Source: Planctomycetota bacterium
Lineage (GTDB): Bacteria > Planctomycetota > Planctomycetia > Pirellulales > Pirellulaceae
Direction: 5' to 3'
Length of the DNA stretch: 49,280 bases
Assembly: GCA_014381825.1 (NCBI GenBank)
Contig: JACNKX010000170.1
Span: 1 to 49,280, forward strand
Shown here piece by piece: positions 1-42,227 of this stretch. Within the stretch, counting starts at the first letter, position 1. Every line of letters begins with the position of its first letter. Below the pieces are notes generated by a model that saw nothing but the letters and a program-made list of their open reading frames with translations, was not told the DNA's origin and searched no databases. The position numbers and the translations under genes were made by a program.

Positions 1-245
1 GTCTGGAACTGAATATCAACGTTTCAGCGCTGGGCGGCGCGTCGGTCGAGATCCACGATGCGGCCGGCAAGCCGATTCCAGGCTACTCACTTGCCGACTG
101 TGATCGAATCCTGATGAACGACGTGGCCCACGTCGTTCGGTGGCGCGGAAATCCCGACGTCTCACGCCTCGCCGGAGAACCGATCCGATTGAAGATCGCG
201 ATGCGTGCCGCGAAGCTCCACGCCTTTCAGTTCGTCAACGAATAG
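1..245 (+). CDS. C-terminal end of a family propeller protein (partial)
   Basis: The reading frame is open from base 3 to the TAG at 243-245 and enters from outside the window. The 80 visible residues are the conserved tail of the propeller family that recurs through this locus: LELN, then a GxSVEI strand, GKPIPGYSLADC, a VVRW strand, DVSRLAGEPIRL and finally LHAFQFVNE. This tail is predicted to be a small beta-sandwich closing the chain. The propeller itself lies upstream and cannot be seen. The next gene starts 43 bases downstream on the same strand, so this is probably the upstream member of the same array. The family membership is clear from the tail; the function is not known. Confidence 0.88.
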   Translation, partial: LELNINVSALGGASVEIHDAAGKPIPGYSLADCDRILMNDVAHVVRWRGNPDVSRLAGEPIRLKIAMRAAKLHAFQFVNE

Positions 246-288
246 CCGGCTTCAAACGATGCGTAATGGGACCAATCAGGGTGACAAA

Positions 289-3200
289 ATGACGTACCGA
301 TGTTGTTGTACGCTCATCTCGAGAGCGATCCTCTGCCCTACGCTTCTGTTGTTTTACACGTGGTCCGCGAACGGGGCGGAGCCGCTAGCTCAGGACTATC
401 GGGTGGTTCTCCGTGTAAACTCGCCGTTGATTACCGCCGGGCCGGGGCTCGTCAAGTTTTCGGACGGGACCCTGTTGGCAGTGTGCCCGGTTGATGGTTA
501 TCGCAAGGGCGGTGAGAACGCGAACAATACCAATTACGCAATCCACCTGGCAGTGAGTCGGGACGCAGGTCGCTCGTGGCGCGAAGCGGCTCCGTCGCTC
601 CCTTACATGACCGCCACACCCTTTCTGGTCGACGATACGATTTACCTTCTAGCTCATCGGCGAGGTCGCCGCGATGTGTTGATTCTCGAGAGTGAGGACC
701 AGGGGGCGACCTGGTCGGAACCTGTGGAGTTGTACCGCGGACCGTATTGGAATGCGCCAACTGGCGTGGCGGTACATAACGGTGTTCTTTACCGCGCTGT
801 CGGCACGGGCGGCCATGGAGCCCGCATCGAGACCGTGGTTCTGGCTCTCGATCTGAAACAGAATCCGATGTCACCGCAAAGTTGGCGGAAGTCGAATCCG
901 GTCAAATACCCCGGCACGCCGAAGGCACTGGACCGCAATCTTTATCCCGGCGGATCAGGACGTTCCGTGTTCGCCCTGGACCACTGGCTGGAGCCCAACA
1001 TCAACAATGTTCGCGGCCGTTTGATGGTAACACACCGCACACGGATCGACGGTTATGCGACCGCTGGTTTAACCGCGATCTGCGACCTGAATGACTCCGG
1101 CGAAGAAATGAAGCTGAACTTTACGCAGTTCTACCCCATGCCGGGCGCGCAAAACAAATTCTTCATCATCTACGACAAGAAGTCGGACCTGTTCTGGATG
1201 CCGGTGAATATTCCGACAGACAATCAAAACTCGACGGGTTGGGACAAGGAACTTTGGGGACGAGGCTTTTTGGGCGGCCCCGGCAACGAGCGACGGATCC
1301 TGATGCTCCAGTACAGCCGTGATTGCCTCAACTGGTTCCACGCCGGCTGTATCGCCGCCTGGCCGAGCCCCATGCATTCATTTTCCTATGCAGCAACGCT
1401 GGTCGATGGCGATGACCTGCTCATCCTCTCCCGCACTTGCGCGCCTGGTGAAGATACCACACGCAACAACCACGATACCAACCTGGTGACCTTTCATCGA
1501 GTGCGCAACTTCCGCTCGCTCGCTCTGGTTCTGAAGCCGGACTTTTCTCCCAACGCCGCGGAAGCAGAGCGACCACAGATTCCGGCTGTCCCTCCTCGTT
1601 CTGATGGGCGCGTTCTACACGTTGATTTCGAAAAATATACCGATGGCGTTGTACAGGCACTCAATGCCGGTGTGCGCTGGCTGGGTGATCCGTTTTCCGG
1701 TCGGAAAGAAGGTGATGTTGCAATTACCAAAGCGAACGCCTGGTCCGGCATGCGAGCAGCACGTGTGGTGACCCGTGAGTCTGACGAGATCGGACGGGTG
1801 CGGCTGCAAGCCCGTTATGATGCTCCCAAGATCGACGGCGACAGCGTGAACGAGTTTGTCTTTCGGGGCAACGGCACAACCATGGACGATTTCGTCCTTT
1901 GGTCGGCCACATCAGCCGATGGTCGCCGTGCGGGAGTGACGCTATTGGCCGTCGCTGGCGACAAACATGACACATTCGCAATCGACGTAATCCAAGCGGA
2001 ATCGCCCGGTTCTCATAACACGAAGCGCACACGCGGCGTAGTGCCTGCTGTCGATGATGGAGAGTGGATCCGCGCCATTTTGCACCGTCTGCGCGGCGAA
2101 CGCATGGTGGAGTTATGGATCGGACGACCGGGAAAAGAGCAGCGGATCGGCAAGTTCAATGACTTAAACTCCGGAGCAGCGGCGGAGAGGATTGAATTGG
2201 GGGACACGTCGACCAAAACCATCCGCGGCGGAGGCGATTGGGATGATGTGCTCGTCGGCGGGCGACTTGCCGACGGCGTTGAACCGGCCAAAGCGGAACC
2301 GCCGCTGCGAAATGTAAGTGACGAGGTCGCGGGAATCGTGACGCCGATCCAGCTTGGCCGGTCCAAACAACTATTCCTTGATGATGTCGTCATCGACTCG
2401 AAGAAGGGACTACGCCGCGAAATGCATGCGGTGCGCAAACACGGTGGCAATCCGCTTGTCACCCCCGACAGCCCGTGGGAAGGACGGAGCGTGCTGCTCT
2501 ACGGCGGTGTCGTCCGAGACCCCGACACCAAGAAGTTTCGCATGTGGTATCTGGCGTGGGGCAAGCACATCGGGCAACCATCGTTCATTTGTTGCGCGGA
2601 ATCATCCGACGGTATCCGCTGGGAAAAGTCGGAACTGAACCTCGTGGAATACAAGGGATCGAAGGCCAACAACATCGTTCTTCCCGGTTGGAGTCAGACG
2701 TCCGTTTTGCGCGACCCGACCGACCCAGATCCCGCGCGACGCTACAAAGCCCTCCTCCGCTACAAGGGATTGCGCGGGTTCACGTCGCCGGACGGAGTGC
2801 ATTGGAAAGACGTCGGCCCTTTGATCGATCAAGGCTTCGACAGCACAACGCTGCATTGGGACCCGGTCAACAAACAATGGGTGGCGATGGTGAAGATTTT
2901 CAAAGATGGCAAACGCGCCCGCGGGTACGCGACCAGCAAGGATTTCCTGAATTGGACCGACACTTATTTCATGTCGACGGTGGATGGACGGGATGGGTCC
3001 GGTGACCAGATGTACTCGATGTCCATGTTCCACTACGAAACGGTTTATCTCGGCCTGTTGCGGATGTATCACACGGATTCTGACGTCGTCGATATTCAAT
3101 TGGCGACCAGCCGCAACAGCAAGCGCTGGGAGCGGCCCACGCGCAACCCTTTTATTCCCACCGGAAGTGCGAAAGGGACCTGGGATTTCGGCAACAATTC

Positions 3201-3600
3201 GGTCCCCGCGACGCCGCCCATTCGAGTTGGGGACGAATTGTGGTTCTATTACGCCGGCCGCAGCACTTTACATAATGAAATTCCCAACGACGGCGCGATC
3301 GGTCTGGCGACGCTACGTGTCGATGGCTTCGCATCGATGACTGCCGATGACCAAGGGACGCTGACGACGAAACCGCTTCACTGCCGCGGTGGCCAACTGT
3401 GCCTCAACGCCGATGCCTCCCAAGGTTCGATTCGCGTCGAGCTGCTCACCGACGACGGTGTTGTGTCGTCAAAACCGATTCAAGGTGACGCTGTCCGCCA
3501 TGCTGTCACGTGGGATACGACAAAACCGATCCCGCGCGGCGACATTCGGCTGCGGTTTCACGTCGATCGCGCGAAGCTGTACTCCTTCTGGACGGAATAA
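289..3600 (+). CDS. Secreted fusion: sialidase/BNR domain + LamG-like domain + GH32/43-like propeller with family tail
   Basis: Start chosen at ATG 289, giving 1103 aa with a signal peptide (MTYRCCC..., hydrophobic LLLFYTW, cleavage near SANGA-EP); the frame stays open upstream to 205 but would overlap the preceding gene. Residues about 30-440 form a sialidase-like propeller with Asp-box motifs SRDAGRSW and SEDQGATW. Residues about 445-665 resemble a LamG/concanavalin-like sandwich (VLHVDFEKY, DGEWIRAILHR, GGDWDDVLVGG). Residues about 685-1103 are a complete family propeller: QLGRSKQLFLDD, PWEGRS, FRMWYLAW, CAESSDGIRW, KANNIV, RYKALL, TSPDGVHW, ATLRVDGF, and the tail ending AKLYSFWTE. In related proteins sialidase domains bind or cut acidic sugars; no catalytic residues can be assigned safely here. 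The fusion suggests that both propellers act on the same glycan. It precedes a second propeller gene by 43 bases. Confidence 0.85.
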   Translation: MTYRCCCTLISRAILCPTLLLFYTWSANGAEPLAQDYRVVLRVNSPLITAGPGLVKFSDGTLLAVCPVDGYRKGGENANNTNYAIHLAVSRDAGRSWREAAPSLPYMTATPFLVDDTIYLLAHRRGRRDVLILESEDQGATWSEPVELYRGPYWNAPTGVAVHNGVLYRAVGTGGHGARIETVVLALDLKQNPMSPQSWRKSNPVKYPGTPKALDRNLYPGGSGRSVFALDHWLEPNINNVRGRLMVTHRTRIDGYATAGLTAICDLNDSGEEMKLNFTQFYPMPGAQNKFFIIYDKKSDLFWMPVNIPTDNQNSTGWDKELWGRGFLGGPGNERRILMLQYSRDCLNWFHAGCIAAWPSPMHSFSYAATLVDGDDLLILSRTCAPGEDTTRNNHDTNLVTFHRVRNFRSLALVLKPDFSPNAAEAERPQIPAVPPRSDGRVLHVDFEKYTDGVVQALNAGVRWLGDPFSGRKEGDVAITKANAWSGMRAARVVTRESDEIGRVRLQARYDAPKIDGDSVNEFVFRGNGTTMDDFVLWSATSADGRRAGVTLLAVAGDKHDTFAIDVIQAESPGSHNTKRTRGVVPAVDDGEWIRAILHRLRGERMVELWIGRPGKEQRIGKFNDLNSGAAAERIELGDTSTKTIRGGGDWDDVLVGGRLADGVEPAKAEPPLRNVSDEVAGIVTPIQLGRSKQLFLDDVVIDSKKGLRREMHAVRKHGGNPLVTPDSPWEGRSVLLYGGVVRDPDTKKFRMWYLAWGKHIGQPSFICCAESSDGIRWEKSELNLVEYKGSKANNIVLPGWSQTSVLRDPTDPDPARRYKALLRYKGLRGFTSPDGVHWKDVGPLIDQGFDSTTLHWDPVNKQWVAMVKIFKDGKRARGYATSKDFLNWTDTYFMSTVDGRDGSGDQMYSMSMFHYETVYLGLLRMYHTDSDVVDIQLATSRNSKRWERPTRNPFIPTGSAKGTWDFGNNSVPATPPIRVGDELWFYYAGRSTLHNEIPNDGAIGLATLRVDGFASMTADDQGTLTTKPLHCRGGQLCLNADASQGSIRVELLTDDGVVSSKPIQGDAVRHAVTWDTTKPIPRGDIRLRFHVDRAKLYSFWTE

Positions 3601-3643: not shown

Positions 3644-5332
3644 ATGATGAATCCCCAACTGTTTCCTCGCCTGTTAACAGCCAATTCAGTCCTCTCGTTT
3701 CTTGCCGTATTGTGCATTGGCTTTTCGGCCCAAGCCGAAACCTCAAGCCCACGGGCTCACAAGACTCTCTTCCTGGATGATCACCACATCACCGAAATGA
3801 CAGGCTTGAAGCGAGTGATGCACAGGCCGGAGAAGAAGGGGGCCGTGTTTCTGCCGCGTGGCGAGACGGATGGAATCCGCGTGCAGACGGCCTCCGCGCC
3901 GGTTTGGGTACCGGAAGAGAATGTCTTCAAACTGTTTTACATGGGGTTTCCCTACCGCAACCACGGCTGGATTGTCGGGGAGATTGGATCGGCGCTGGCG
4001 GTGTCGCCGGATGGGCTGGACTGGAAACGGCCCGTGCTCAACCAGGTGGAGATCGGCGGCTCGACAGCCAACAACCGGTTCTTCGTCGATCCGAATCTCC
4101 GCTGGGGCGCTAATAAGCTCATGGAGGTGATTCATGATCCCCACGATCCCGATCCACAGCGTCGGTACAAAGGGCTGCTGGGAGCCAGCGGTCGAAAACC
4201 GATTGTCAGCCCGGACGGCGTGCACTGGAAGACGATTGGAGCGAAGACGATTCCGTCCAGCGACACGTCGACGCTGATCTACGACGAAGTGGGGAAACGC
4301 TATCTCGCCGTGCTGAAGAACGGAACGAAGTTCGGGCGCAGCGCAGCAGTGGCATTCAGCACCGATTTCAAAACCTGGACGACTCCTCGCACGACGTTTC
4401 ACACCGATGAGCAGGATCAGGAGATTGCCCTCGAGCGCGTTGAGAAACGTCTCTCGGATCCGCGGATGCAGAATCCGATGTTCAACGACCCACACCCCAA
4501 GACGGGCTGGAAGCCGCCCGGTTTCGATCCCGGTATCGGCAAGAGCAAAATCCCCACTTGGCGAGCTGAGACTTACAAACTGGCGGTCTTCCCGTACGAG
4601 GGTCTTTATATCGGAATGCCGCAGATCTACTACCCGACCGGTCCGGCCCTGCCAGCACGAAACAACACGGTCGGGTTCCATGAAATCCAACTGGCATTCA
4701 ACCGCGATCCTCAACTTTCGCGCGAGGGCTGGAAGCGGCTTGGTGATCGCCAGCCCTTCATCGAGACATCGGGACTCGACAAGGGGCTGGCAGGCAACTT
4801 CGACCGTCAGCAACTCGGAGTCCTCAATCGCCCGGTCGTGATGAAAGACGAGCTGTGGTTTTACTACACCGGCGCGAAAGGGCGCTCGCTGCCTTACAAG
4901 CTGTGGCCTGACGGGACAGTCCGGAACGAGGCAAAGCTGACTCCCGCTGAAAAGGCTGATTTCGACGACGGCTGGATCGCAATCTGCCTCGCCACGCTGA
5001 GGCTCGATGGTTTCGTCTCGTTGACTGCGGGCGACAAAGCCGGCCAGGTCATCACGAAACCGTTCGTCGTCACTGGTGATCGACTGCTGCTAAACGTCGA
5101 TGTCTCCGACGACGGCGAAGCGACGGTGGAATTGCTGGACGAAGACATGCAGACGATCGACGGTTTCGAACTGAGAAACTGCGTTCCTCTACGCCGCCGC
5201 TCAATTGAACAGACCGTTCGTTGGACGACCAATGCGAGCTGGAGTCAATTGGCCGGACGAAAGGTGCGATTACGAGTCACGCTTCGCAACGCGAATCTCT
5301 ACGCATTCTGGACTTCGAAGGAAACCACGTGA
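3644..5332 (+). CDS. Secreted GH32/43-like propeller protein, long subfamily
   Basis: 562 aa; ATG codons at 3644 and 3647 are both possible. A signal peptide (SVLSFLAVLCIGFSAQA-E) precedes the propeller. Family marks in order: KTLFLDDHHI, a RVMHRPEKKG segment, KLFYMGF, SPDGLDW, STANNRF, HDPDPQRRYKGLL, SPDGVHW, IYYPTG, ELWFYYTG, ATLRLDGFVSL, then the tail (RLLLNVDVS, VELLDED, LRNCVP, SQLAGRKVRL, LYAFWTS). Compared with the shorter copies it carries an insertion (MQNPMFNDPHPKTGW and following, about residues 280-310) and a WPDGTVRNEAKL loop, both shared with the protein at 20160, so these two form one subfamily. It is probably a secreted glycan-active or glycan-binding protein; the enzymatic activity is unproven. 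Its stop overlaps the GTG start of the next gene (GTGA), which suggests translational coupling. Confidence 0.85.
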   Translation: MMNPQLFPRLLTANSVLSFLAVLCIGFSAQAETSSPRAHKTLFLDDHHITEMTGLKRVMHRPEKKGAVFLPRGETDGIRVQTASAPVWVPEENVFKLFYMGFPYRNHGWIVGEIGSALAVSPDGLDWKRPVLNQVEIGGSTANNRFFVDPNLRWGANKLMEVIHDPHDPDPQRRYKGLLGASGRKPIVSPDGVHWKTIGAKTIPSSDTSTLIYDEVGKRYLAVLKNGTKFGRSAAVAFSTDFKTWTTPRTTFHTDEQDQEIALERVEKRLSDPRMQNPMFNDPHPKTGWKPPGFDPGIGKSKIPTWRAETYKLAVFPYEGLYIGMPQIYYPTGPALPARNNTVGFHEIQLAFNRDPQLSREGWKRLGDRQPFIETSGLDKGLAGNFDRQQLGVLNRPVVMKDELWFYYTGAKGRSLPYKLWPDGTVRNEAKLTPAEKADFDDGWIAICLATLRLDGFVSLTAGDKAGQVITKPFVVTGDRLLLNVDVSDDGEATVELLDEDMQTIDGFELRNCVPLRRRSIEQTVRWTTNASWSQLAGRKVRLRVTLRNANLYAFWTSKETT

Positions 5333-6774
5333 GTAGACATCGTCCATACACCGCCTGCTTGGCGCTGCTGTCTTTTTTCGCGATTGAAATCGTCGCCGCG
5401 GAACCTGACCCGCGAATCCAACAAAGGCCACCGCAGGAGGATGCGGTGCTGTATCGCAAGCTCGCGATCCCAGACGAGTTTCTCGTTACAAAGCAAGGAC
5501 ACACTTTTGGCGGTGATCTCCGCATCGGCGATCTGAATGGCGACGGGCGATGCGACTTCTTGGTCTATCGGTGCAATCACGGTGCGCCGAAGGGTGCTCA
5601 CATGGGCGGGATGAAACCGACCTTCATGGGCGCATTCGATTTGGACGGGAAGCCGCTGTGGCAAGTCGGCGAGGGCGGCAATCAGCCCTCCCGGCCGATG
5701 TCGGTTGCGGTCAAGGACTGGACCGGCGATGGCGCGGCCGATGTGATCTGCTTTTGGCATAAACCGCAGACGAAGTTGAAGACCGACTGGCAATCGCTCG
5801 CCGATGTTGTCGTACAACTGCGGGACGGACGCACTGGAAAGGTGCTTCGTGAGGCGGCGCCCCATGCTATCACCGATCGAAGGCGCAAAGATCCGGTCGG
5901 CGCGAACTGGGTTCATCAGCGTTTACTGATCGCGAACTTCCGTGGCGCGCCCGAGCCGCGTGACCTTGCTGTCAAACTCGGCGACACCTATGTCGCGCTC
6001 GATGAACACTTTAATGTCCTCTGGACCTACCGAACCGAATGGGTCAAGTACAGCCAGTGCCCTGCCTACATTCCGGCGGTCGGCGACATTGACGGCGACG
6101 GGCGCGACGAACTGCTTACGGGGTATCATCTCATCGACGACGATGGTTCGTTGATGTGGAAGAACAAACTGGGATCGAACATGGACTCGGTCACGATCGA
6201 TCGCTGGCGGAGAAAAACGCGCGCGATCTGTTCGGGCTTCGGCCATGTGATGACGGCGGAAGGCAAAGTCGAGTTGTCGCTTGGCAAACGGCTCGTACCC
6301 CACGGTCAGGAAGTCCGCGTCGCGGATTTCCATTCCGGCCATGCCGGCAACGAGATGGTGCTGCGAGCCTTTGGGCATAAACCAACCGTGCATCTGGTCA
6401 GCAGCCAGACCAACACGATCATCAACACGATCGAACTCCAGTTCTCTCCTACCAACGTCGGCATGGAGCCGGTCTACTGGAACGGACCGACTGAGCCAGC
6501 TTTGCTTTTCAACGGCGGCTGGCTGTGGGACATGCAGCAAGGCAAGGGTGGGCAACTTCCGGACCTGCCTCCGCCAAACGGAGGCGACGTACATCGCATG
6601 GGCTTCTACCACGTAATCCCCGCCAACCTTGTCGGAGACGCGCGTGAGGAACTTGTCATCTGGGATCCGACTGCCACGCACATCTATATCTATACGCCGA
6701 AGTCGCTGAACGAAACGCTCACCCCGAAATACCATCACGGCCCGCGGCAATACAATCCGCGGCTGATGGATTGA
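5329..6774 (+). CDS. Secreted FG-GAP propeller protein resembling PL11 rhamnogalacturonan lyases
   Basis: The frame is open from 5221, but GTG 5329 is the likely start: it overlaps the previous stop as GTGA and opens a good signal peptide (CLALLSFFAIEIVAA-EP). The product is 481 aa. Three calcium-type FG-GAP loops are visible: DLNGDGRCD (about 68-76), DWTGDGAAD (130-138) and DIDGDGRDE (253-261). The surroundings, FDLDGKPLW and later VALDEHFNVLW followed by DIDGDGRDELL and IDDDG, have the order I know from PL11 rhamnogalacturonan lyases (B. subtilis YesW/YesX), which are eight-bladed propellers. I infer a PL11-like or PL11-derived protein, but cannot confirm catalytic residues. A plain FG-GAP adhesion-type propeller is the alternative. 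It sits between two family propellers. Confidence 0.72.
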   Translation: MSRHRPYTACLALLSFFAIEIVAAEPDPRIQQRPPQEDAVLYRKLAIPDEFLVTKQGHTFGGDLRIGDLNGDGRCDFLVYRCNHGAPKGAHMGGMKPTFMGAFDLDGKPLWQVGEGGNQPSRPMSVAVKDWTGDGAADVICFWHKPQTKLKTDWQSLADVVVQLRDGRTGKVLREAAPHAITDRRRKDPVGANWVHQRLLIANFRGAPEPRDLAVKLGDTYVALDEHFNVLWTYRTEWVKYSQCPAYIPAVGDIDGDGRDELLTGYHLIDDDGSLMWKNKLGSNMDSVTIDRWRRKTRAICSGFGHVMTAEGKVELSLGKRLVPHGQEVRVADFHSGHAGNEMVLRAFGHKPTVHLVSSQTNTIINTIELQFSPTNVGMEPVYWNGPTEPALLFNGGWLWDMQQGKGGQLPDLPPPNGGDVHRMGFYHVIPANLVGDAREELVIWDPTATHIYIYTPKSLNETLTPKYHHGPRQYNPRLMD

Positions 6775-6788: not shown

Positions 6789-8219
6789 ATGAGATCTGTA
6801 GTTCTTCCCGCCTTCGCTCTTTTCATGGCACTTGGCGCTCGAGCCGCCGAGCCGATCGACATCGGTTCGCGGCGGGAACTGTTCACTGATGACTATCTCG
6901 TCGAAGGGCTGAGTGGCAGTGCCACGCTGGTCGTTCAGAAACCCGTTTCGCGGGAAGTCGTTCTGGTGACCGACAAACCGTGGGAAGGAAGTAGTTGTCT
7001 CTACTTCACGATCTTTCAGGACGGCGACCTGTACCGCATGTATTACCGCGGTTTGCAGATCAAGGATGGCAAACCGGCGCACCCCGAAGTCGTCTGTTAC
7101 GCCGAAAGCCGCGACGGCGTGAAGTGGATGCGGCCGGAACTGGAGCTTGTCGAATTTGACGGATCGACCAAGAACAACATCGTCTGGGACGGACTCGGTT
7201 CGCACAATTTCACGCCGTTCATTGATCACAACCCGGAATGTCGGCCAGAGGCAAAGTACAAAGCGCTCGGGCGAGGCAAGCGGACGCCGGATGGCAAACC
7301 CGGCAGCATCCATCAATTGTTCGCGTTTCAATCACCCGATGGAATTCACTGGTCGTTGATGCGCGATGAACCCGTGCTGACAAAGGGTAGATTCGACTCA
7401 CAGAACCTCGCGTTCTGGAACGCGGAACGTGATTGCTATGTCGCCTTCTATCGCGATTCGCTGGGTGGCTTTCGCGCCATCCGTACGGCGACGTCGCACA
7501 ACTTTCTCGACTGGGACGAGCATCGGTTTCTCGGCTATCGGGGGGCCGCTCGCCAGCATCTTTACACCAACGCCATCCAGCGGTACGACCGCGCGCCGCA
7601 TCTGTTGATCGGCTTTCCGACTCGCTTCCTGCCTCGCAACAAGTTCGCGGACCGACCGGACTGGACGGAACCGATTCTGATCGCCGGCCGAGACGGTCGA
7701 TCGTTTCGCCTCTGGAACGATCCGATCATTCCGGCGAACACGAAAGCCACCAGTGGAAACCGAAGCAACTACGTCTCGTGGGGACTGGTTCAACTTCCCG
7801 ACGGACCGAACGAGTATTCGCTCTACGCGGCCGAAGATCGTCGGACAGAGACTTCGATGCGACTTCGGCGATACAGCTATCGTGCGGATGGCTTCGTCTC
7901 GCTATCGGCACGTGACTCAGCAGGAGAACTGTTTACAAGACCTCTCACCTTTTCTGGAAGGCATCTGGTCGTGAATTACGCGGCACGTCCGGGTGGCTCG
8001 CTTGGCGTTGAGCTTCAGGACGCGTCCGGAAAACCGGTCTCGGGTTTTGCACTCGATGACTGCGACGGGCTCGACGGCGACAGCGTTCAGCACGTCGTCC
8101 GCTGGGAAAGCGGGACCAGCGTCGAGGCGTTCGCAGGCCAGCCCGTCCGTTTACGCTTCGTCCTGAAGAATGCCGATCTGTACTCATTTCAGTTCGTCTC
8201 TTGTGGAGAAGAGCCGTGA
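6789..8219 (+). CDS. Secreted GH32/43-like propeller protein, short subfamily
   Basis: Start taken at ATG 6789 (476 aa); an in-frame TTG at 6771 would overlap the previous stop as TTGA and cannot be excluded. The signal peptide is VVLPAFALFMALGARA-AEP. Family motifs: GSRRELF (26-32) with D34/D35, PWEG (64-67), RMYY (83-86), CYAESRDG (103-110), STKNNIV (about 126-132), AKYKAL, SPDGIHW, FDSQNLAFWN, APHLLIGFP, RRYSYRADGFVSL, then the tail with GSLGVELQDASGKP, FALDDCD, VVRW, VRLRFVLKNADLYSFQF. The acidic residue after the RRELF motif occupies a place like the blade-I aspartate of GH32/GH43 enzymes, which is only an inference. Likely secreted and active on, or binding to, a glycan. Confidence 0.87.
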   Translation: MRSVVLPAFALFMALGARAAEPIDIGSRRELFTDDYLVEGLSGSATLVVQKPVSREVVLVTDKPWEGSSCLYFTIFQDGDLYRMYYRGLQIKDGKPAHPEVVCYAESRDGVKWMRPELELVEFDGSTKNNIVWDGLGSHNFTPFIDHNPECRPEAKYKALGRGKRTPDGKPGSIHQLFAFQSPDGIHWSLMRDEPVLTKGRFDSQNLAFWNAERDCYVAFYRDSLGGFRAIRTATSHNFLDWDEHRFLGYRGAARQHLYTNAIQRYDRAPHLLIGFPTRFLPRNKFADRPDWTEPILIAGRDGRSFRLWNDPIIPANTKATSGNRSNYVSWGLVQLPDGPNEYSLYAAEDRRTETSMRLRRYSYRADGFVSLSARDSAGELFTRPLTFSGRHLVVNYAARPGGSLGVELQDASGKPVSGFALDDCDGLDGDSVQHVVRWESGTSVEAFAGQPVRLRFVLKNADLYSFQFVSCGEEP

Positions 8220-8296
8220 CACCACTGATTCGAACCGTGTTGATCAAATGATAGAAATCGATCTGACCCCATTCTCCCCCATAAATGGCTATCTAC

Positions 8297-9553
8297 ATGA
8301 ATACGACATTCACTATCGTTAGTGCTTCGGCGCTTGTGTTGCTGACTCTGCGGGCGGAAGCTCAGACGCAGACGCTCGAAGTCAAACCCGGTGACAACCC
8401 TCAAAAAGTCCTCGACACCGCGTCACCCGGTAGCAAATTGGTTTTCTTGCCAGGGCTACACCAGCATCCACTCGGCCGACACCAGTCGATTCTCTATGTC
8501 GACAAATCAGTCGACATCGAGTTGCAACAAGGGGCTGTGCTCGAGTTGGCCGATCACCAATCAACGCTGAGTGATTCGGCCGAGATTACGATCGACCATG
8601 GGGCGCCTAAGAAACTCAACGACCTGATGGTCCGTGGCAAATACGACAAGAAGGCAGGACGGACGTACTTCGCAATCTACATCGACGGAGAAGGTGCAGA
8701 TGGTAAACCGGATACATTTCGTTGGGCTCTCATAAGTCGGGAGGTCGGCTTGCACGGCAAGTATCCGAACGAGAAGGTGCCAATTACGGGTGATTGGCAG
8801 ATGCTAAGCAACGGCGTTCAAATCAAGTTCGCTTCGACCACCGGCCATAACAGGAATAGTCTCTGGATTCTCTCTTTTGGTGGCCGTGAATCGTATGGGA
8901 TCAGAATTGGGCACGGCACTCAGGAGGACTATATCGAAAACGTCCGCATCCATGGCGATGGCGTAATCGACATGAATCAGACTAACAACGCGCAACCGAC
9001 CGAATGGGTGAAGGACATCTCGGCCTGCGTTCTGATTCACGGGCGAGTTCGCAACGTCACAGTTGAACAGATCACCATGCGCGACGCCATGCGATCCGTG
9101 ATGGCCTACGGCAAACATACGGGCAAGTTCCTGCGCGGCGGTGGAACGAAGGGGGGTGAATCCTTCGATGCCGAGAACATTTCCGTCTTGCACACCAAAA
9201 CACTGAATCCAACAGGCAAGGCATACCTGCTCGGCCATCCCTCGCATCGCGGCAGACTCACCAACGTCAAGTGCAACTACAACTTCATGGTGACAGCGGG
9301 CACTGCACTGGAACCAAATTTCAACCTCGATCACTACGAAGTAATTGGGAACGTCATCAAGAGTGGGACACTGGCGATCCACTGCTGGCGTCGGTCCAGC
9401 AACGGGCGAATTGAACACAATGTGCGTATCGAAAATCGGCCGAATCACCCGGTCGTGAGAGCGAATTCACCCGATGCCTGGGAAGACCCTGAGAATCTCA
9501 CCATTCGTCACAACCGAGTAGTTAGGGATTTGCAGCCGGACGCAGCGAGGTGA
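8297..9553 (+). CDS. Secreted right-handed beta-helix (pectate-lyase-fold) protein
   Basis: ATG 8297 gives 418 aa with signal peptide (FTIVSASALVLLTLRAEA-QT); an in-frame ATG at 8285 adds four residues. The N-terminal mature segment TLEVKPGDNPQKVLDTASPG resembles the 'x-x-G-x-x-LQ-A-hD-ASPGD' opening of pectate-lyase-like helices. Regular NVRIHGDGVIDMNQT, NVTVEQITMRDA, ENISVLHTKTL, NVKCNYNF, YEVIGNVIKSGTLAI and RIEHNVRIEN rungs follow, consistent with a parallel beta-helix to the end of the chain. There is no family tail. Proteins of this fold are commonly polysaccharide lyases or hydrolases of uronic-acid polymers; which of these applies cannot be read from the sequence. The gene is flanked on both sides by family propellers, and a REPIN-like element lies just downstream. 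Confidence 0.78.
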   Translation: MNTTFTIVSASALVLLTLRAEAQTQTLEVKPGDNPQKVLDTASPGSKLVFLPGLHQHPLGRHQSILYVDKSVDIELQQGAVLELADHQSTLSDSAEITIDHGAPKKLNDLMVRGKYDKKAGRTYFAIYIDGEGADGKPDTFRWALISREVGLHGKYPNEKVPITGDWQMLSNGVQIKFASTTGHNRNSLWILSFGGRESYGIRIGHGTQEDYIENVRIHGDGVIDMNQTNNAQPTEWVKDISACVLIHGRVRNVTVEQITMRDAMRSVMAYGKHTGKFLRGGGTKGGESFDAENISVLHTKTLNPTGKAYLLGHPSHRGRLTNVKCNYNFMVTAGTALEPNFNLDHYEVIGNVIKSGTLAIHCWRRSSNGRIEHNVRIENRPNHPVVRANSPDAWEDPENLTIRHNRVVRDLQPDAAR

Positions 9554-28085: not shown

Positions 28086-28148
28086 CATTGAACCCCGTCC
28101 GCTTCGTTTGCGGCGGCGTCAGCGTTGCTCGAACACTGGAACCGACGA

Positions 28149-33051: not shown

Positions 33052-34468
33052 CGGCACCCACTGGTTCTCGATTTGGATGTTGGTCGTTGGATTGGTGTTT
33101 CCCCAATCCAAACTCATCGCGGAAGAGAACCGTGCGGTCAACATCGGTTCTCGGTTGGAATTGTTCATCGACGACTTCCTGATCGAATCACGTTCGGGTC
33201 TGACGCTGCAACTGCACCACCCTGTCCGCGCGGAAAAAGTCCTGGAACCAGAAGAACCGTGGGAAGGTAAGAATCTAGGCCACGTGAGCATTTTGAAGGA
33301 TGGCGATCGGTACCGGATGTACTATCGCGGACATCATGACCCAGGATTCTCTTGGTCCGAGAATATCTATACGTGCTACGCCGAGAGCACCGACGGCGTC
33401 CGCTGGAACAAACCACACCTCGGACTCGTTGAATGGGAAGGCTCGAAAGCGAACAACATCTTGATGCGAGGTCAACGCGGAGCATATTTGACCCCCTTCA
33501 TTGACGATCGTCCCCGCGTCCCCGCATCACAGCGATACAAGTCCTTTGCCGGTAACCCGCCAAGAGCTATGGTTGCACCCGATGGACTTCGCTGGTCTCC
33601 GCTAAACGACGAGCCCGTCCTTCCAAAACCTCGATTCGGAATCGCATTGTGGAACCCGCAGCGTGAGGAATTCATGGCGTATGTGCGGGCGTGGCGTCCT
33701 CGGAGTGATGGCACTCGCATGCGAAACATTGCACTGTCGACTTCGCCCGACTTTCTGAAATGGTCGGAACCGAAGTTGCTTGATTTCGGCGACGCGCCCG
33801 ACTTTCATCTCTACTGGAACACAGCCTTGCCCTACTTTCGAGCACCCCATCTTTACCTCGGTTTTCCAATGCGGTTGCGAGAATACAACGACGCGTCAAC
33901 TGGGGAGCGGCGAGACTGGACGGATGCGATCTTAATGGTCACTCGTGACGGTTTTCATTTCCATCAGCACGTCGAAGCGTTTGTGCGACCGGGACTTGAT
34001 CAGAACAACTGGCAACCGCATGTGAACATGCTGGCATACGGTATCGTGCCGACGAGTGATCAGGAACTCTCAATGTACCTGACCAATGCCGCGGGCGGGC
34101 AACGGCACTTGCGACGATTAAAACTGCGTACCGACGGCTTTGTGTCACTACGAGCGAGTGACAAAGGCGGCGAGCTGATCACCAGGCCGATCATCTTCAG
34201 CGGCGGGGAACTGATACTGAACTTCTCGACAAGTGCCATCGGCAGTGTTCGCGTCGAGTTGCAAACAACGGCAGGCGAAGCAATCCCCGGCTTCGCGCTC
34301 GACCAGTGTGAAGAGCTCGTCGGCGACACGGTTTCTCGATCCGTCCAGTGGCGGGGCGAGAAACAACTACACCAGTTGTCAGGCGCACCAATTCGGCTTC
34401 GATTCGTACTGAAGGACGCCGACCTTTACTCATTCCAGTTCGTTTCTGATGGAGTGAAGGACAAATGA
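33029..34468 (+). CDS. Secreted GH32/43-like propeller protein, short subfamily
   Basis: 479 aa if started at ATG 33029, which lies inside the final YAFHF codons of the preceding gene (23-base overlap); ATG 33077 would avoid the overlap and still keep a short hydrophobic segment (MLVVGLVFPQSKLIA). Motifs: NIGSRLELFIDDFLIE, LQLHHPVRAEKV, EEPWEG, YRMYYRG, CYAESTDGVRW, LGLVEWEGSKANNI, QRYKSFA, APDGLRW, ALWNPQREEF, APHLYLGFPMR, VTRDGFHFH, LRTDGFVSL, and the tail [45 protein letters not shown]. It is the most compact intact member and a good reference for family boundaries. Predicted secreted and glycan-related; the activity is unknown. Confidence 0.86.
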   Translation: MHFTSRSSGTHWFSIWMLVVGLVFPQSKLIAEENRAVNIGSRLELFIDDFLIESRSGLTLQLHHPVRAEKVLEPEEPWEGKNLGHVSILKDGDRYRMYYRGHHDPGFSWSENIYTCYAESTDGVRWNKPHLGLVEWEGSKANNILMRGQRGAYLTPFIDDRPRVPASQRYKSFAGNPPRAMVAPDGLRWSPLNDEPVLPKPRFGIALWNPQREEFMAYVRAWRPRSDGTRMRNIALSTSPDFLKWSEPKLLDFGDAPDFHLYWNTALPYFRAPHLYLGFPMRLREYNDASTGERRDWTDAILMVTRDGFHFHQHVEAFVRPGLDQNNWQPHVNMLAYGIVPTSDQELSMYLTNAAGGQRHLRRLKLRTDGFVSLRASDKGGELITRPIIFSGGELILNFSTSAIGSVRVELQTTAGEAIPGFALDQCEELVGDTVSRSVQWRGEKQLHQLSGAPIRLRFVLKDADLYSFQFVSDGVKDK

Positions 34469-34493
34469 CGAGTTGCCTGCGACAAAAAAGCAA

Positions 34494-36392
34494 ATGCGAG
34501 AGCATCGAATGTGGCGAATGATACCGATGACTGTCGGCCTCTGCTTGTCGGTAGCGATCTCTGCCGTTGGCCAAGACGCTAACGTCGTGCGGTACGGCTT
34601 TCCTCGTCCCCAACGCAAGGTGATCGTTTATGGCTGGGAGATGAACTTTCGCGAAATGAGCGAGCTGCGGCGGAGGGCGGAGGTGATGCAGCGTCAGCCG
34701 TTCGACGGCATCATGTTCAGTCTGTTCCACGAGGGGAAAAGTCGTGACGAAGCATTTATCCACTCGGCCCGGCTAACTGACAAGGAACTCGCGCCGGTCG
34801 TCAAAGAACTCTCGGCGATCCGCTGGACAACGTTTACGGACAACTTCCTGATGGTCAAGGCGGGCGAGCAGTTTCTCGACAACGGCGATCCCGGCCGCAT
34901 GGATTGGTTCGACGACGGTCAGTGGGACACGATTTGTCACAACATCCGCGTGCTGACGCGAGTCGCCGTTGCCACCCGATGCAAGGGACTGGGCTTCGAT
35001 CCCGAGCCCTATCACGCCTCGGTCTGGAACTACGATCAGGCCGGCAGTCGCAAGCCGCAATTGCATCGCGACGCCAAGTCGTTCGACGAGTACGCCGCGG
35101 TCGTTCGCCGCCGTGGTGCTCAATATATGAACGCGATTCAGGCCGAGATGCCGCGCGTCCGCATCTTCAATCTCTACCAAGCCGTCCGCCTACCGCCCAG
35201 CGAACTGGCCGAGACGATCTACTCGCTGTACCCGGCCTTCATCAACGGGATGCTCGATGCGGCTGGACCCGAAGTGATGCTGATTGATGGCAACGAATAC
35301 GGCTTTGGTCTGTTGACGCGCGGCGACTACACCAATGCGTACGTCAACGTCAAAGAACGCAAGCTGGCTCTGATCGACCCGAAGAACCGCGACAGATATC
35401 GGAAGCAGGTTCAAGTATCCGTCCCCATTTACCTTGACGATATCTTTGGCAGCCACGCCAACCGCCGCTGGGTCGGGACGTACCTCGCCACCGACGAGAA
35501 ACGCCGCCTCTTTGAGCATAGACTCTTTCATGCCCTGGATTCCGTCGATGAGTACGTCTGGGTTTACGGCGAACGACCGTCATGGTTCAGCAACACGCCG
35601 CGTGTGCCTCGGTGGGCCGCGGCCAGCGTCGCGACGATCAGGAAACAGGTCGATCAACTCCGGTTGGAGGACCGGCAGGAAGACGCTGCGCTCATCGTTC
35701 GCGTCAGTGAGCAGATCGCGCTGCGTGACAACGAGGTAGCCGAATTGAAGCCCGCCGAACGCGCGACACCGCGAGTCGACAAGCCGCGAGCAAACGTCCG
35801 CAGTCTCCCGACTGGCGTTGCCGCTCCTGTGATCAACGGCAGGCTCGACGATCCGGCGTGGAAACAGGCCACCGTGTTGAAGAACTTCCAGCCGTTGATG
35901 TACTTTGTTCGCGATTGTGTTGCCGTGGAAACCACTTGCCGTGTCATGTGGGACAAGCAGTTTCTCTACTTTGCCTTTGAGTGCGTTGAGCCGCGGATAG
36001 TTGAACTGAAGTCTCTTCCCGCCGAGGAACGACGGCGAAACCGAACGACACTCGTCCTATCAACGTCCGCGGAATCCAGTTCATTCGTTCGAATCGACGT
36101 CCCGCTGGGAGGAGCGGTGAGATTCCTCGTTCGCAAACCCGGCCAAGAGTGGACTGTCGTTGCCGCCGCGAAAACTCGATTGCAGTCAAGTCATCGCACA
36201 ACCAACAAAGGCTGGACTGCCGAATGGCGAGTCGCGTGGGCCGGAATCGGTGGCACGCCAGAACCTGGACAAACGAGAAATGCCACTGTCACGCGTGTTC
36301 GTAGCCCGTGGGCCGAACACGACAGTTGGGCACCGCAAATTGATCCAAACCTGATCGACGAATCGCTTCTGGGAACGTGGGCCTTCGAGTAG
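34494..36392 (+). CDS. Secreted TIM-barrel-like protein with C-terminal CBM9-like domain
   Basis: ATG 34494 gives 632 aa with signal peptide (MIPMTVGLCLSVAISAVG-QD); in-frame TTG 34473 and ATG 34509 are alternatives. Residues about 35-400 look like a barrel of the kind often found beside planctomycete carbohydrate enzymes: KVIVYGWEMNF, PFDGIMFSLFH, WTTFTDNFLM, CKGLGFDPEPYH, PRVRIFNLYQA, MLIDGNEYGFG, VYGERPSWF. The GFDPEPY and IDGNEY acidic residues are the obvious active-site candidates. After a charged helical linker (KQVDQLRLEDRQED), residues about 440-632 fit CBM9: VINGRLDDPAWKQATVLKNF, TCRVMWDKQFLYFAFECVEP, TNKGWTAEWRVAWAGIG, ESLLGTWAFE. CBM9-type domains bind sugar chain ends. No family tail. 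It ends the tightly packed part of the array. Confidence 0.78.
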   Translation: MREHRMWRMIPMTVGLCLSVAISAVGQDANVVRYGFPRPQRKVIVYGWEMNFREMSELRRRAEVMQRQPFDGIMFSLFHEGKSRDEAFIHSARLTDKELAPVVKELSAIRWTTFTDNFLMVKAGEQFLDNGDPGRMDWFDDGQWDTICHNIRVLTRVAVATRCKGLGFDPEPYHASVWNYDQAGSRKPQLHRDAKSFDEYAAVVRRRGAQYMNAIQAEMPRVRIFNLYQAVRLPPSELAETIYSLYPAFINGMLDAAGPEVMLIDGNEYGFGLLTRGDYTNAYVNVKERKLALIDPKNRDRYRKQVQVSVPIYLDDIFGSHANRRWVGTYLATDEKRRLFEHRLFHALDSVDEYVWVYGERPSWFSNTPRVPRWAAASVATIRKQVDQLRLEDRQEDAALIVRVSEQIALRDNEVAELKPAERATPRVDKPRANVRSLPTGVAAPVINGRLDDPAWKQATVLKNFQPLMYFVRDCVAVETTCRVMWDKQFLYFAFECVEPRIVELKSLPAEERRRNRTTLVLSTSAESSSFVRIDVPLGGAVRFLVRKPGQEWTVVAAAKTRLQSSHRTTNKGWTAEWRVAWAGIGGTPEPGQTRNATVTRVRSPWAEHDSWAPQIDPNLIDESLLGTWAFE

Positions 36393-38999: not shown

Positions 39000-40622
39000 A
39001 TGACCCGCCACACCATGGATACGATTGTGAAACTGACTGTTATTGCGATGCTCATCTTTGCAACGGTTTGCACCGAGGCTGCCGAGCCGATCCACATCGG
39101 ATCGCGGCGGGAGTTGTTTACAGATACGGCGCTGATTGAGCGAATCAACGGACAGCTTGAGTTCCGGCTGCACCATCCGACTCCGCGGGAGATCGTGATG
39201 TTGCACGACGAGCCGTGGGAGGGCAACAACACAACCTATCACTGCGTGTTCAAGGACGGCGACCGCTATCGCATGTTCTATGTCGGGCGCAACTCGACGT
39301 ATCAGAATGGCCAGTTAAACATTGGTCCATCCAGTTTTTGCTACGCAGAAAGCGACGACAGCATCCACTGGCGAAAACCGAAACTTGGACTGTGCGAGTT
39401 TCAAGGATCGAAAGCCAACAACATCGTGATGGATGCCGCCGCGGCGGCTAAGCACAACGCACGCCTCGGAGCTCCGGCCGTTTTCAGGGACGAGAATCCT
39501 GAGGCAACACCCGATGCACGCTACAAGATGTTCCTGAATTCGAGGAGCCCACTCGGCATGTTTCCGATGAAGTCGCCCGACGGCATTCACTGGTCGCCGA
39601 TGAGCGACAAGCCTGTCATCACCGACGGCGCTTTCGACTCGATGAACCTCGCATTCTGGGACAGTGAACGCGGTGAGTATCGTGCCTACTGGCGCTACTT
39701 CACGGGAGGCACGACAAACGAAAAGGAATGGAAACCAGCAGGGGTGCGAGCGATCCGCACGGCGACATCGAAAGATCTGTTGCACTGGGAGGCTCAGTCC
39801 GACCTGAGTTATCAGAGTTCTCTCGAAATGGAATTGTACGAGAACGGGATTCACCCCTATCACCGCGCGCCGCATCTGCTGATCGGTTTGCCGGTCCGTT
39901 ACGTCGATCGGGCCGGCGCTTCCTCTCTAACTTCTTCGGACGGCAGCGACCGAGCCGGGCCGGAGCGCATCCGCAAATGGCCGGCGTCATTACGAGCGCT
40001 GCCGGACTTTGAGCAACGCCAGGCACGGGCGGCGCTGAGCGAGAGATATGGCAGTGCCTTGACCGAAGGGCTCTTCATGTCCAGCCGCGATGGCGTGAAC
40101 TTCCACCGCCGGGACGAAGGATTCCTTCGACCGGGCATCGAACGACCGGGCACCTGGAACTACGGGCACCAGTTCGTGGCCTGGCACGGTGTGGAGACGG
40201 CCTCCGCGCTGGAAGGTGCGCCCAACGAACTCTCTCTATACGCGACGGAGGGAGTCTGGCTGGAGAAGAAGGGCAAAACGCTGCGACGTTACACCCTTCG
40301 GCTCGATGGATTCGTCTCGGCCCATGCTTCGGCGAAGGGTGGCGAACTCGTGACGAAACCTATCGTGTTTTCCGGCCGGAAACTGTCGCTGAACTTCGCC
40401 ACATCCGCCGCCGGCAGCATCCGCGTCGCCATCGAGCACCCCAACGGCAAGCCGATCGACGGCTTCTCGCTCGCCGATTGCTCCCCGCACTTTGGCGACA
40501 CGCTGGATCGTGCGGTCGTTTGGAGCAACCAGCAGGATCCCGGCCGGTTCGCCGGCACACCAGTTCGCCTACGGTTTGTCCTCCAGGATGCCGATCTGTA
40601 TTCGTTTCGGTTCGGTGACTGA
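39000..40622 (+). CDS. Secreted GH32/43-like propeller protein, short subfamily
   Basis: ATG 39000 gives 540 aa; the frame is open from 38832, but the extra residues are not signal-like, and ATG 39015 is also possible. Signal peptide IVKLTVIAMLIFATVCTEA-AEP. Motifs: IGSRRELFTDTALIE, FRLHHPTPREIV, EPWEGNN, YRMFYVG, CYAESDDSIHW, LGLCEFQGSKANNIV, ARYKMFL, SPDGIHW, FDSMNLAFWD, APHLLIGLPVRY, SSRDGVNFH, RRYTLRLDGFVS, and the tail GSIRVAIEHPNGKPIDGFSLADC, FAGTPVRLRFVLQDADLYSFRF. An insertion rich in R, A and S (ASSLTSSDGSDRAGP, about residues 350-385) corresponds to that of the 9766 copy. It is the first gene of the second plus-strand block, with its own probable promoter region upstream. Confidence 0.87.
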   Translation: MTRHTMDTIVKLTVIAMLIFATVCTEAAEPIHIGSRRELFTDTALIERINGQLEFRLHHPTPREIVMLHDEPWEGNNTTYHCVFKDGDRYRMFYVGRNSTYQNGQLNIGPSSFCYAESDDSIHWRKPKLGLCEFQGSKANNIVMDAAAAAKHNARLGAPAVFRDENPEATPDARYKMFLNSRSPLGMFPMKSPDGIHWSPMSDKPVITDGAFDSMNLAFWDSERGEYRAYWRYFTGGTTNEKEWKPAGVRAIRTATSKDLLHWEAQSDLSYQSSLEMELYENGIHPYHRAPHLLIGLPVRYVDRAGASSLTSSDGSDRAGPERIRKWPASLRALPDFEQRQARAALSERYGSALTEGLFMSSRDGVNFHRRDEGFLRPGIERPGTWNYGHQFVAWHGVETASALEGAPNELSLYATEGVWLEKKGKTLRRYTLRLDGFVSAHASAKGGELVTKPIVFSGRKLSLNFATSAAGSIRVAIEHPNGKPIDGFSLADCSPHFGDTLDRAVVWSNQQDPGRFAGTPVRLRFVLQDADLYSFRFGD

Positions 40623-40664
40623 CCCATTTACACTGACGGTTCTTCAGATTGAAGGTCGTTTGCC

Positions 40665-42227
40665 ATGAGAGATTTGCTGATCCTGCTCGCAGGTTGCACA
40701 CTCCAGTTTCTTGCCGCGTTCGCCGTCGGTCAGGAGGACGAACCGCTTACGTTCGACGTAGATCAGCCGCAGTTGTTCATCGACGACTATCTGATCGAGG
40801 AAGTCCGAGGCCTGAAGCGGACGCTCCACCAACCAAAAGACGCGACGGAGAATCCAGCGATTCTTCCCGAGTATCCCTGGGAGCACCGGCGAATACCGTA
40901 TGGATCGGTGTGGTATGATGGCGAGGGGAAGAAGTTTCGATGTTGGTATCTGACCCTGAACATCTACGATTCGCGGCCCGGCTTTCGCGGCTACCGGAAA
41001 CAGCATCACGTGCCGATTCACGAGGCTGCGTATCTCTGCTATGCCGAGTCGGACGACGGGATTCGCTGGCGAAAGCCGGAACTGGGCTTGCACGAATTCC
41101 GCGGCTCCAGGAAGAACAACATCCTCCTCACGTGCCCCGGTACACACTTCGACAGCACGTCGGTCATCCACACTCCTCACGACCGCGAGAGGCCGTGGAA
41201 GATGATTAGCTTTATCGGGCTATGGCCCTACAAGCAGGATCTCATCAAAAAGCAGTGGGGCGACACGAAGTTCGGAATCGCGCAAGCTGGACATTACGGC
41301 TGGTCGTCGCAAGACGGGATTCACTGGGAACCGATGAACGACGGCAAACCGGTGCTGCGGGCCAGCGACCGCAGCATGTTCTGGTGGGATCCCCGGCAGC
41401 AGATCTACGTCGGCGCCGCCAAGTCGAGCCTGAACCGTAAGCGGGCTCAGCTCTACGCGACCAGCCCCGACGCGATCAACTGGATGCGAACTTCCACGTG
41501 GCTCCACACAGCCGACGAACGTGACCATCCCGGCGACGAGGCCGAAGCGGCGTACGGGTTTCCCTACGGTAATCAATACGTTGGCTTCTGTGAGATGCGG
41601 CGAGTGCGCAAGGGCAAGCCGACAAAGATCAATTGGGAACTGATGACCAGCCGCGACGGCCGCAACTGGATTCGCCCGATCCGTGAGATGTTCTTCGCCG
41701 ACGGCCCGGAGCAAAGCTGGCGGTATCAGGTCTTCAAGATCTTCGCGAACCCGCCACTGGAGCGCGATGGGAAGCTGTGGATCTACTACGGCGGCAAGTC
41801 GGGAACGGTTTCGCTCGAGGAAGGCACGGAACCATTTCAAGCGTTGTGCGTCGCGACGTTGCGCAAGGACGGGTTCGTTTCTCTGGACGCCGACGTGGCT
41901 GGAGGCCATCTCGTTTCCAGGCCGTTTGTTGCCGTCGGTAGGCGAATGAGCTTGAACGTTGTCTGCGGCAAGCGTGGTTACGCAAAGGCGGCTCTACTCG
42001 ACAAGCACGGCAAACCCTTGCCGGGCTTCGATCTCGCCGACTGTCGGCCGATCGAGTCCGACATGATCGACGCTGTCGTCTCATGGAAGTCGGCCACTGA
42101 CATCAGCAAACTGGCCGGTGAAACCATCCGAGTTCGCATAGAGCTGTCCAATGCACAGCTCTACGCCTTACGATTTCGAGATGAACGGACCGTTGATGAG
42201 GTGTCTTCCAGAGAGGCACGCGAATGA
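40665..42227 (+). CDS. Secreted, possibly lipid-anchored, GH32/43-like propeller protein
   Basis: 520 aa, with GAAGG about 11 bases before the ATG. The N-terminus MRDLLILLAGC contains a lipobox-like LAGC, so the protein may be a lipoprotein with Cys11 as the first mature residue; cleavage at FAVG-QE is the alternative. Motifs: QPQLFIDDYLIEE, RTLHQPKDA, YPWEHR, FRCWYLTL, CYAESDDGIRW, LGLHEFRGSRKNNI, SSQDGIHW, RSMFWWDPR, ATSPDAINW, GFPYGNQYVG, TSRDGRNW, LWIYYGG, ATLRKDGFVSL, and the tail MSLNVVCGKRGYAKAALLDKHGKPLPGFDLADC, ISKLAGETIRVRI, AQLYALRF. The GYAKA wording in the tail is shared with the long-subfamily copy at 20160. It ends with a stop that overlaps an in-frame upstream ATG of the next gene. 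Confidence 0.86.
   Translation: MRDLLILLAGCTLQFLAAFAVGQEDEPLTFDVDQPQLFIDDYLIEEVRGLKRTLHQPKDATENPAILPEYPWEHRRIPYGSVWYDGEGKKFRCWYLTLNIYDSRPGFRGYRKQHHVPIHEAAYLCYAESDDGIRWRKPELGLHEFRGSRKNNILLTCPGTHFDSTSVIHTPHDRERPWKMISFIGLWPYKQDLIKKQWGDTKFGIAQAGHYGWSSQDGIHWEPMNDGKPVLRASDRSMFWWDPRQQIYVGAAKSSLNRKRAQLYATSPDAINWMRTSTWLHTADERDHPGDEAEAAYGFPYGNQYVGFCEMRRVRKGKPTKINWELMTSRDGRNWIRPIREMFFADGPEQSWRYQVFKIFANPPLERDGKLWIYYGGKSGTVSLEEGTEPFQALCVATLRKDGFVSLDADVAGGHLVSRPFVAVGRRMSLNVVCGKRGYAKAALLDKHGKPLPGFDLADCRPIESDMIDAVVSWKSATDISKLAGETIRVRIELSNAQLYALRFRDERTVDEVSSREARE

Follow-up and report, generated by a model that had tools for sequence, protein, structure and literature searches.

The 49,280-nucleotide stretch analysed here, called the window below, is positions 1 to 49,280 of contig JACNKX010000170.1 of a Planctomycetota bacterium (assembly GCA_014381825.1; contig C210 of a 9.69 Mb genome in 238 contigs). 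Between positions 3 and 42227 it carries nine full copies and one partial copy of a propeller-plus-tail protein family, all on the plus strand. Judged from predicted structures, the family belongs to the GH32/GH43/GH117/GH130/GH137 propeller superfamily of glycoside hydrolases (GH), and it has no entry in Pfam or NCBIfam. What is new is an unassigned family inside a known superfamily, with an unusual copy number. With moderate confidence, we read it as one secreted, two-domain, glycosidase-like family whose members would mostly be exo-hydrolases in the breakdown of an acidic glycan, and which would have grown by old duplication, transfer or retention. The sequence-only reading had claimed ten copies, with different carbohydrate proteins interleaved between them. 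The count is correct if the first copy, reduced to the tail end by the window edge, is included, and the interleaving is confirmed by the domain matches of the neighbouring genes. The copies are listed here, with residue numbers taken from the protein that starts at 9766.

3..245, plus strand: first copy, of which the window holds just the end of the tail (profile match at 3-236; 80-residue open frame).
289..3600, plus strand: fusion of a BNR sialidase-like N-terminus (PF13088, 31.7 bits, cut-off 31.4), a middle region, and propeller plus tail from about 2308 (family match).
3644..5332, plus strand: family copy of the divergent clade, Asp for E68 (profile match; modelled).
6789..8219, plus strand: family copy (profile match).
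9766..11334, plus strand: family copy, reference for residue numbers (profile match; modelled).
20160..21773, plus strand: family copy of the divergent clade, Leu at 338 (profile match, alignment).
29824..29895, plus strand: remains of an eleventh copy, a 24-residue piece of the tail end (profile match).
29971..33051, plus strand: fusion of a GH156-like barrel (6rzd) to propeller and tail from about 31606 (family match).
33029..34468, plus strand: family copy lacking D212, possibly inactive (profile match, alignment).
39000..40622, plus strand: family copy (profile match).
40665..42227, plus strand: family copy lacking D155, D/E338 and E393 (profile match, alignment).

The full copies were recognised by a family profile search in the open reading frames (ORFs) starting at 289, 3644, 6789, 9766, 20160, 29971, 33029, 39000 and 40665. 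For 289, 6789 and 39000, the search took the longer, mechanically assigned starts 205, 6771 and 38832; the 38832 copy is thus copy 39000 with a longer start. Two of the nine full copies are fusions (289-3600 and 29971-33051), which the sequence-only reading had not separated. Because the far lower expectation values (E) of a profile built on these very copies are circular, significance was taken from a single-sequence search, in which the 9766 protein recovered all eight remaining full copies, at best E-values between 2e-114 and about 1e-17. When 9766 and 3644 were each compared with the others, identity among the window copies was 25-47%. The listed motifs are sound as a majority consensus and do not recur letter for letter in each copy: PWEG occurs at five places in the window, GSRRELF at three, RLDGF at four, YAES at six, SPDG-HW at six and K-NNI at four. 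All nine full copies begin with a hydrophobic stretch of signal-peptide type, followed in eight by three residues of which the last is A (judged by a simple rule instead of SignalP), and from these N-termini the family is apparently secreted.

AlphaFold models of two distant copies both predicted a five-bladed propeller of GH32/GH43 type plus a C-terminal beta-sandwich. The model of the 9766 copy (56 alignment rows) had a mean predicted local distance difference test score (pLDDT) of 90.6 and a predicted template modelling score (pTM) of 0.91. For the 3644 copy (divergent clade, 21 rows) these values were 82.9 and 0.86, with some loops below 50. The top Foldseek match of both models was the GH32 levanase BT1760 (1.3e-11 for 9766, 6.9e-12 for 3644). 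The GH130 structures 7fip/7fir were covered at template modelling (TM) scores up to 0.67 and 0.65, and GH137 5mui at 0.61 and 0.53, for 9766 and 3644 respectively. Among sequence-profile matches to the PDB, GH130 chains were best (4.1e-9 to 3.6e-8), followed by weaker matches to GH117-related and GH32 chains and the deacetylase 6n1a. The GH32/43-like fold proposed from the letters is therefore supported by two predicted models and Foldseek. The tail had no PDB relative (best E 0.07). In the own genome it never occurs without a propeller, contig edges and remnants excepted; a free binding module was rejected there because the tail is always propeller-linked.

No Pfam or NCBIfam model rose above its cut-off over the propeller or tail of the window copies. 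At E 0.01, at most 2 of 56 family members gave Pfam matches, both weak (GH32 N-terminal, 4.3e-4; BNR_2, 0.0029), and four copies gave weak sub-threshold NCBIfam matches of GH130 and GH32 type. In line with the earlier expectation, the Pfam profile search placed no characterised family over the propeller, and only distant PDB relatives were found. The catalytic triad of GH32 lies in the motifs WMNDP, RDP and EC, and the catalytic Asp of GH130 in an E-D-P-R motif. The GH32 N-terminal model matched at most 1 of the 56 members (the weak match at 4.3e-4), and the 38832 copy reached 13.4 bits against a cut-off of 22.1. The GH32 set of motifs was not found; in the window alignment, W-E and F-D-S occupy the positions assigned by strand order. 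The GH43 model PF04616 scored only 12.5 bits, within the sialidase-like section of the 289-3600 fusion, and had no match at 0.01 among the 56 members. The GH130 model PF04041 had no match in the window copies or the 56 members. For the E-D-P-R motif, the PDB alignments to GH130 cover mainly blade I.

With GH32 and GH68 (clan J) and GH43 and GH62 (clan F), the family shares the five-bladed propeller, the top Foldseek matches and acids that would lie in blades I, III and IV; with GH32 it also shares a C-terminal beta-sandwich. It differs from them by an identity of only about 10% in the Foldseek alignments, and from GH32 by the Glu of W-E where GH32 has the Asp of WMNDP, and by F-D-S in place of RDP (motifs described in part in the accessible text of PMC5342196, otherwise general background). 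The GH130 phosphorylases and hydrolases (7fip, 9fj8) gave the best PDB sequence matches and have the blade I W-E in common, but our family lacks a PF04041 match, has an extra C-terminal domain and carries signal-peptide-like N-termini. GH137 BT_0996, GH159 Ch_Gaf159A and GH117 resemble it in propeller fold by Foldseek (5mui, 7zei, 4u6d), but at an identity of about 12-13%, and GH159, as far as the accessible text of PMC9278983 describes it, has no sandwich domain.

Conservation across 121 family proteins points to a candidate active site. D212 is Asp in 117 of the 121; E68 is Glu in 101 and Asp in 4; and position 338 is Asp in 64 and Glu in 37. Other well-kept acids outside Asp-box turns are D418 (119/121), D37 and D155 (112 each) and E393 (Glu in 102, Asp in 3). 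R244 is kept in 118 proteins, N139 in 117, and K167 and Y283 in 114 each. When the strand order of the 9766 model is set against the usual propeller topology, E68 and D212 would each stand before the inner strand of their blade (I and III, respectively), and D/E338 at the start of a strand in blade IV. All three would face the funnel, where they may form a pocket together with R231, R244 and Y283. Because E68, D212 and D/E338 fall at the funnel face by topology, most copies are probably exo-acting hydrolases. D155 and D80, at the opposite end of the propeller, are probably structural.

Several points concerning fold, residues and tree weigh against our favoured reading. Over the whole length, TM-scores reach only about 0.4, and the PDB profile matches are concentrated in some 55-60 residues of blade I. 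Planctomycete GH130 and GH43 sets, compared profile against profile, gave no usable match, which argues neither way because these sets are multi-domain. The conserved acidic pocket, whose absence the sequence-only reading had named as a refutation, is kept in most copies as judged by conservation and strand order, with these departures: 33029 lacks D212, 40665 lacks D155, D/E338 and E393, 20160 has Leu at D/E338, and 3644 has Asp in place of E68. An alternative explanation might be that the propellers are non-catalytic, acting as carbohydrate-binding proteins or pseudoenzymes that aid neighbouring enzymes or capture glycan. The loss of the best-kept pocket Asp in 33029 (a possibly inactive copy) and of D/E338 in 40665 and 20160 would fit, as would the fusion of two copies to other glycosidase-like domains in the fashion of accessory modules, and no activity is known for the family. 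Yet the set of acids, arginines and tyrosines is strongly conserved in the 121 proteins, and the PDB matches of the same fold are mostly enzymes, so that we consider this explanation unlikely. Somewhat less probable still is another chemistry on the same fold, either a metal-dependent N- or O-deacetylase resembling the GalNAc deacetylase of F. plautii, or a GH130-like phosphorylase or transglycosidase. Here the evidence consists of profile matches to 6n1a (2.1e-5 and 0.001 in two profile searches) and to GH130, both of which also appear in Foldseek, the alignment of the W-E pair with that of GH130, and weak GH130-type NCBIfam matches in three copies. It is countered by the missing PF04041 match and by the signal-peptide-like N-termini, which are ill-suited to phosphorolysis; this reaction uses cytosolic phosphate.

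The remaining adverse points concern the tree of the 121 proteins, which was built with FastTree under several long-branch warnings. In this tree, a single clade of four rows (support 95) holds 3644, 20160 and one partner of each; these partners, a Fuerstiella sp. copy and the C216 duplicate, are found on island-related contigs. This clade, together with ten copies on one strand within about 42 kb, is what one would expect if one ancestral gene had been multiplied in place within 40 kb and its copies then tuned, as the sequence-only reading had proposed. The remainder of the tree tells otherwise. No two of the nine full window copies are sisters, and they need nine label changes, against a mean of 8.8 for shuffled labels; identity is no more than 44% even between 3644 and 20160. 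Six of the nine have a strongly supported partner elsewhere: 9766 and 3644 in Fuerstiella sp. G294 (100 each), 39000 (99) and the propeller of 29971 (100) in the congener G295, and 20160 and 40665 on contigs C216 and C89 of the own genome (100 each). The other three have no close partner: 6789 falls in an 11-row clade (99) whose members come from several genomes, 289 joins 40665 in a loose group of eight rows (87), and 33029 belongs to no supported group. On this tree we reject fresh local amplification, save for a possible old local duplication behind 3644 and 20160, and we regard tandem amplification as the origin of the set as highly improbable. The copies are diverse and of old origin, not recent duplicates. 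The ratio of non-synonymous to synonymous substitution rates (dN/dS) was 0.11-0.25 for five of the six pairs compared, which shows purifying selection in these five; the sixth pair was saturated.

Beyond the window, the own genome (G000) has 43 places above 200 bits, two of which are halves of one frameshifted gene on C19, and two further places at 100-200 bits, giving about 44 family genes. One copy, on C219, has an internal TGA. The congener G295 has 23 places above 200 bits and G296 has four. The nearest named relative among 17 loci of one collection scan is a metagenome-assembled genome (MAG) of Fuerstiella sp. (Planctomycetaceae), in which the 9766 copy is 84-87% identical. The eight places of the Fuerstiella MAG comprise five open genes, one frameshift-split gene and two with internal stops, where assembly errors are possible. 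In a sample of 294 genomes of the phylum, 59 matched at 1e-3 and 41, counting the own genome, below 1e-40; since generally five candidates were scored for each genome, the counts per genome are lower bounds. The family also occurs in MAGs labelled Verrucomicrobia, Hydrogenedentota, Aminicenantes, Acidobacteria, Chloroflexi and Paceibacterota, although such labels can be wrong. The only plasmid relative was the hypothetical protein EP7_005588 (CP151669.1, Isosphaeraceae plasmid), which is 26% identical and lies beside an IS4 transposase. On contig C21 of G295 (4214-9476), three full propeller genes and a fragment stand in a row. Since these neighbouring genes come from different clades, the clustering of unlike copies recurs in the congener.

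The proteins interleaved with the propellers offer a setting for their predicted role:

5221..6774, plus strand: PL11-like (rhamnogalacturonan lyase-like) protein, start uncertain (PF21348, 55.5 bits; YesX 2zuy, E 7.9e-9 over about 100 residues).
8285..9553, plus strand: secreted protein without family match (no Pfam at E 1; only weak NCBIfam matches).
11342..14866, plus strand: esterase with SASA acetylesterase and GDSL domains, its C-terminal part weakly BNR-like (PF03629, 216.9 bits; PF13472, 46.1 bits).
14863..16065, plus strand: BNR sialidase-like protein (PF13088, 68.8 bits).
16093..18582, plus strand: 829-residue protein, partner candidate (Pfam without a match above cut-off, NCBIfam without any; PDB matches not convincing).
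18777..20153, plus strand: BNR_4 protein related to the BT3686 rhamnosidase family and PL25 (PF15892, 80 bits; 5muk, E 1.4e-11; PL25 5uam, E 0.0032).
21770..24742, plus strand: double esterase, BD-FAE-like plus AXE1-like (PF20434, 89.1 bits; PF05448, 31 bits).
24739..27885, plus strand: DUF1961 protein (PF09224, 109.3 bits).
28125..29840, plus strand: DNRLRE protein with an Ig-like end (NF033679, 46.8 bits, above cut-off; PF17957 weak).
34473..36392, plus strand: 639-residue protein with a CBM9-like C-terminal part (PF06452, 22.2 bits, just below the cut-off of 23.4).
42224..44593, plus strand: BNR sialidase-like protein (PF13088, 129.6 bits).

The 18777-20153 protein also matched NF052497 at E 6.4e-11, far under the cut-off of that model; BT3686 belongs to GH145. 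A Y-D-E-P stretch in the 16093-18582 protein looks glycosidase-like by eye. All genes up to 36392 lie on one strand, mostly with gaps of less than 70 bases or 4-base overlaps and a few gaps of 130-350 bases, computed with our own choices of start codon; this spacing suggests several operons.

In such a set, the lyase- and barrel-type enzymes would open the chain, the esterases would take off acetyl groups, and the sialidase-, rhamnosidase- and propeller-type proteins would trim the ends. The variable, exo-acting role would fall to the propellers, as divergent paralogues may suit a complex glycan with several terminal linkages. The set would have grown by shuffling and loss of whole genes besides the old duplication, transfer or retention. 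Because of the GH156-, GH145/PL25- and PL11-like neighbours and the esterases, our guess by analogy is that the substrate may be an acetylated, acidic, rhamnose-bearing glycan. A bolder version, which we advance tentatively, would define a new glycoside hydrolase family, perhaps two given the two deep clades, in which a blade I Glu replaces the usual Asp and the C-terminal sandwich is obligatory. The roughly 44 secreted paralogues, some fused to other catalytic domains, would then form a versatile planctomycete toolkit for acidic glycans that bear rhamnose or nonulosonates, with a separate terminal linkage for each paralogue to open.

The barrel of the 29971-33051 fusion bears on the acidic character of this glycan. 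It matches the inverting sialidase EnvSia156 of GH156 (6rzd, E 6.9e-28) and keeps R129, H134, R246 and N346. The accessible text of PMC6811678 assigns roles in GH156 to the carboxylate arginines R129 and R202, to N346, to H134 and to D14. The general acid H134 is thus present, but the carboxylate triad R129/R202/N346 is incomplete in this barrel, with Ser at the position of R202. This replacement hints, on sequence grounds, at another acidic sugar rather than plain N-acetylneuraminic acid. The general base D14 falls outside the aligned stretch; the Asp in LNSDGG is a candidate by eye.

Rearrangements of related islands are consistent with shuffling and loss of whole genes. Contig C216 of the own genome (1-11173) carries a second, shortened island core with homologues of 11342, 20160 and 21770, at a DNA identity of 83-95%, and lacks most of 14919-20192. 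It is either a genuine second core of this genome or a strain variant that was assembled with it. In the Fuerstiella MAG, two places about 11 kb apart on one contig carry homologues of the 9766 region. The first has the 9766 copy followed by a truncated 11342 (130 residues). In the second, the sequence that precedes 9766 runs straight into a complete 11342, behind which come 14863 and the 3644 homologue. Because the junction (locus 21140-21340) retains the last bases and the stop of the propeller gene, it is consistent with a clean deletion of that gene, and the window order would be older at this point. The element upstream of 9766 had no second match within the window. The end of gene 28125-29840 overlaps, in another frame, the tail remnant at 29824-29895 of a lost propeller gene, and its 3' end looks as if it had been made by a deletion and now runs into that remnant.

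In the literature searched, mostly abstracts, with CAZy and most subscription papers outside its scope, no publication was recognisable as describing this family. The claim of a new enzyme system stands as far as the missing Pfam or NCBIfam family is concerned, but the word undescribed has to be softened, since propeller-type glycosidases are already in print in the accessible parts of PMC5352709 and PMC5342196. There, a putative propeller-type glycoside hydrolase outside CAZy is reported from an Isosphaeraceae plasmid (PMC5352709), and Lac161_ORF10 (AGW45555; 63.7 kDa) is a propeller beta-galactosidase without a family, found in a functional screen on a cosmid assigned to Verrucomicrobia and with measured activity (PMC5342196). 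Compared by that description only, Lac161_ORF10 resembles our family as a propeller outside any family with an origin of Planctomycetes-Verrucomicrobia-Chlamydiae (PVC) type, but differs in being PF04041-related, in its KDP motif and in having homologues mainly in Bacteroides. Eighteen propeller proteins counted in PMC5352709 are probably not the window family, because they are homologues of AGW45552, the dehydrogenase-like ORF7 of PMC5342196 rather than the propeller ORF10.

A multi-copy, apparently secreted and maintained family without a Pfam or NCBIfam entry would escape searches with those libraries, and the glycan-degrading power of planctomycetes may be underestimated as a consequence. 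About 44 paralogues in one genome, with relatives in 41 of 294 sampled genomes of the phylum (below 1e-40, the own genome counted), provide a concrete set for defining the family and its specificities. If its members were inactive, they would represent a large binding toolkit instead; either outcome would be informative.

Other genes of the window have less bearing on the propellers. At 36739-37479 lies a protein of two similar halves, YCII-like under the cut-off and with no carbohydrate link. A 435-residue protein with FG-GAP-type repeats, judged by eye from its translation, is encoded on the minus strand at 37530-38837, and the plus-strand ORF at 37653-38564 is probably spurious. The own genome has at least 139 sulfatase matches (150 of 305 candidates scored); among these 150, none lay on the window contig, where less than one was expected by chance. 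At 44979-49278, the window ends in a DUF1553 (PSCyt/PSD1) and DUF1501 pair. A link of DUF1501/DUF1553 genes with propeller loci (14 and 10 genes nearby) was judged weak after counting against expectation: a DUF1553 gene lies within 10 kb of 12 of the 25 propeller loci, where about 6.6 are expected, and within 5 kb of 7 of the 25, against 4.4, under a simple Poisson expectation that ignores contig ends and with 150 of 162 candidates scored. With about 141 DUF1553 and at least 127 DUF1501 genes, the own genome shows a striking expansion of both.

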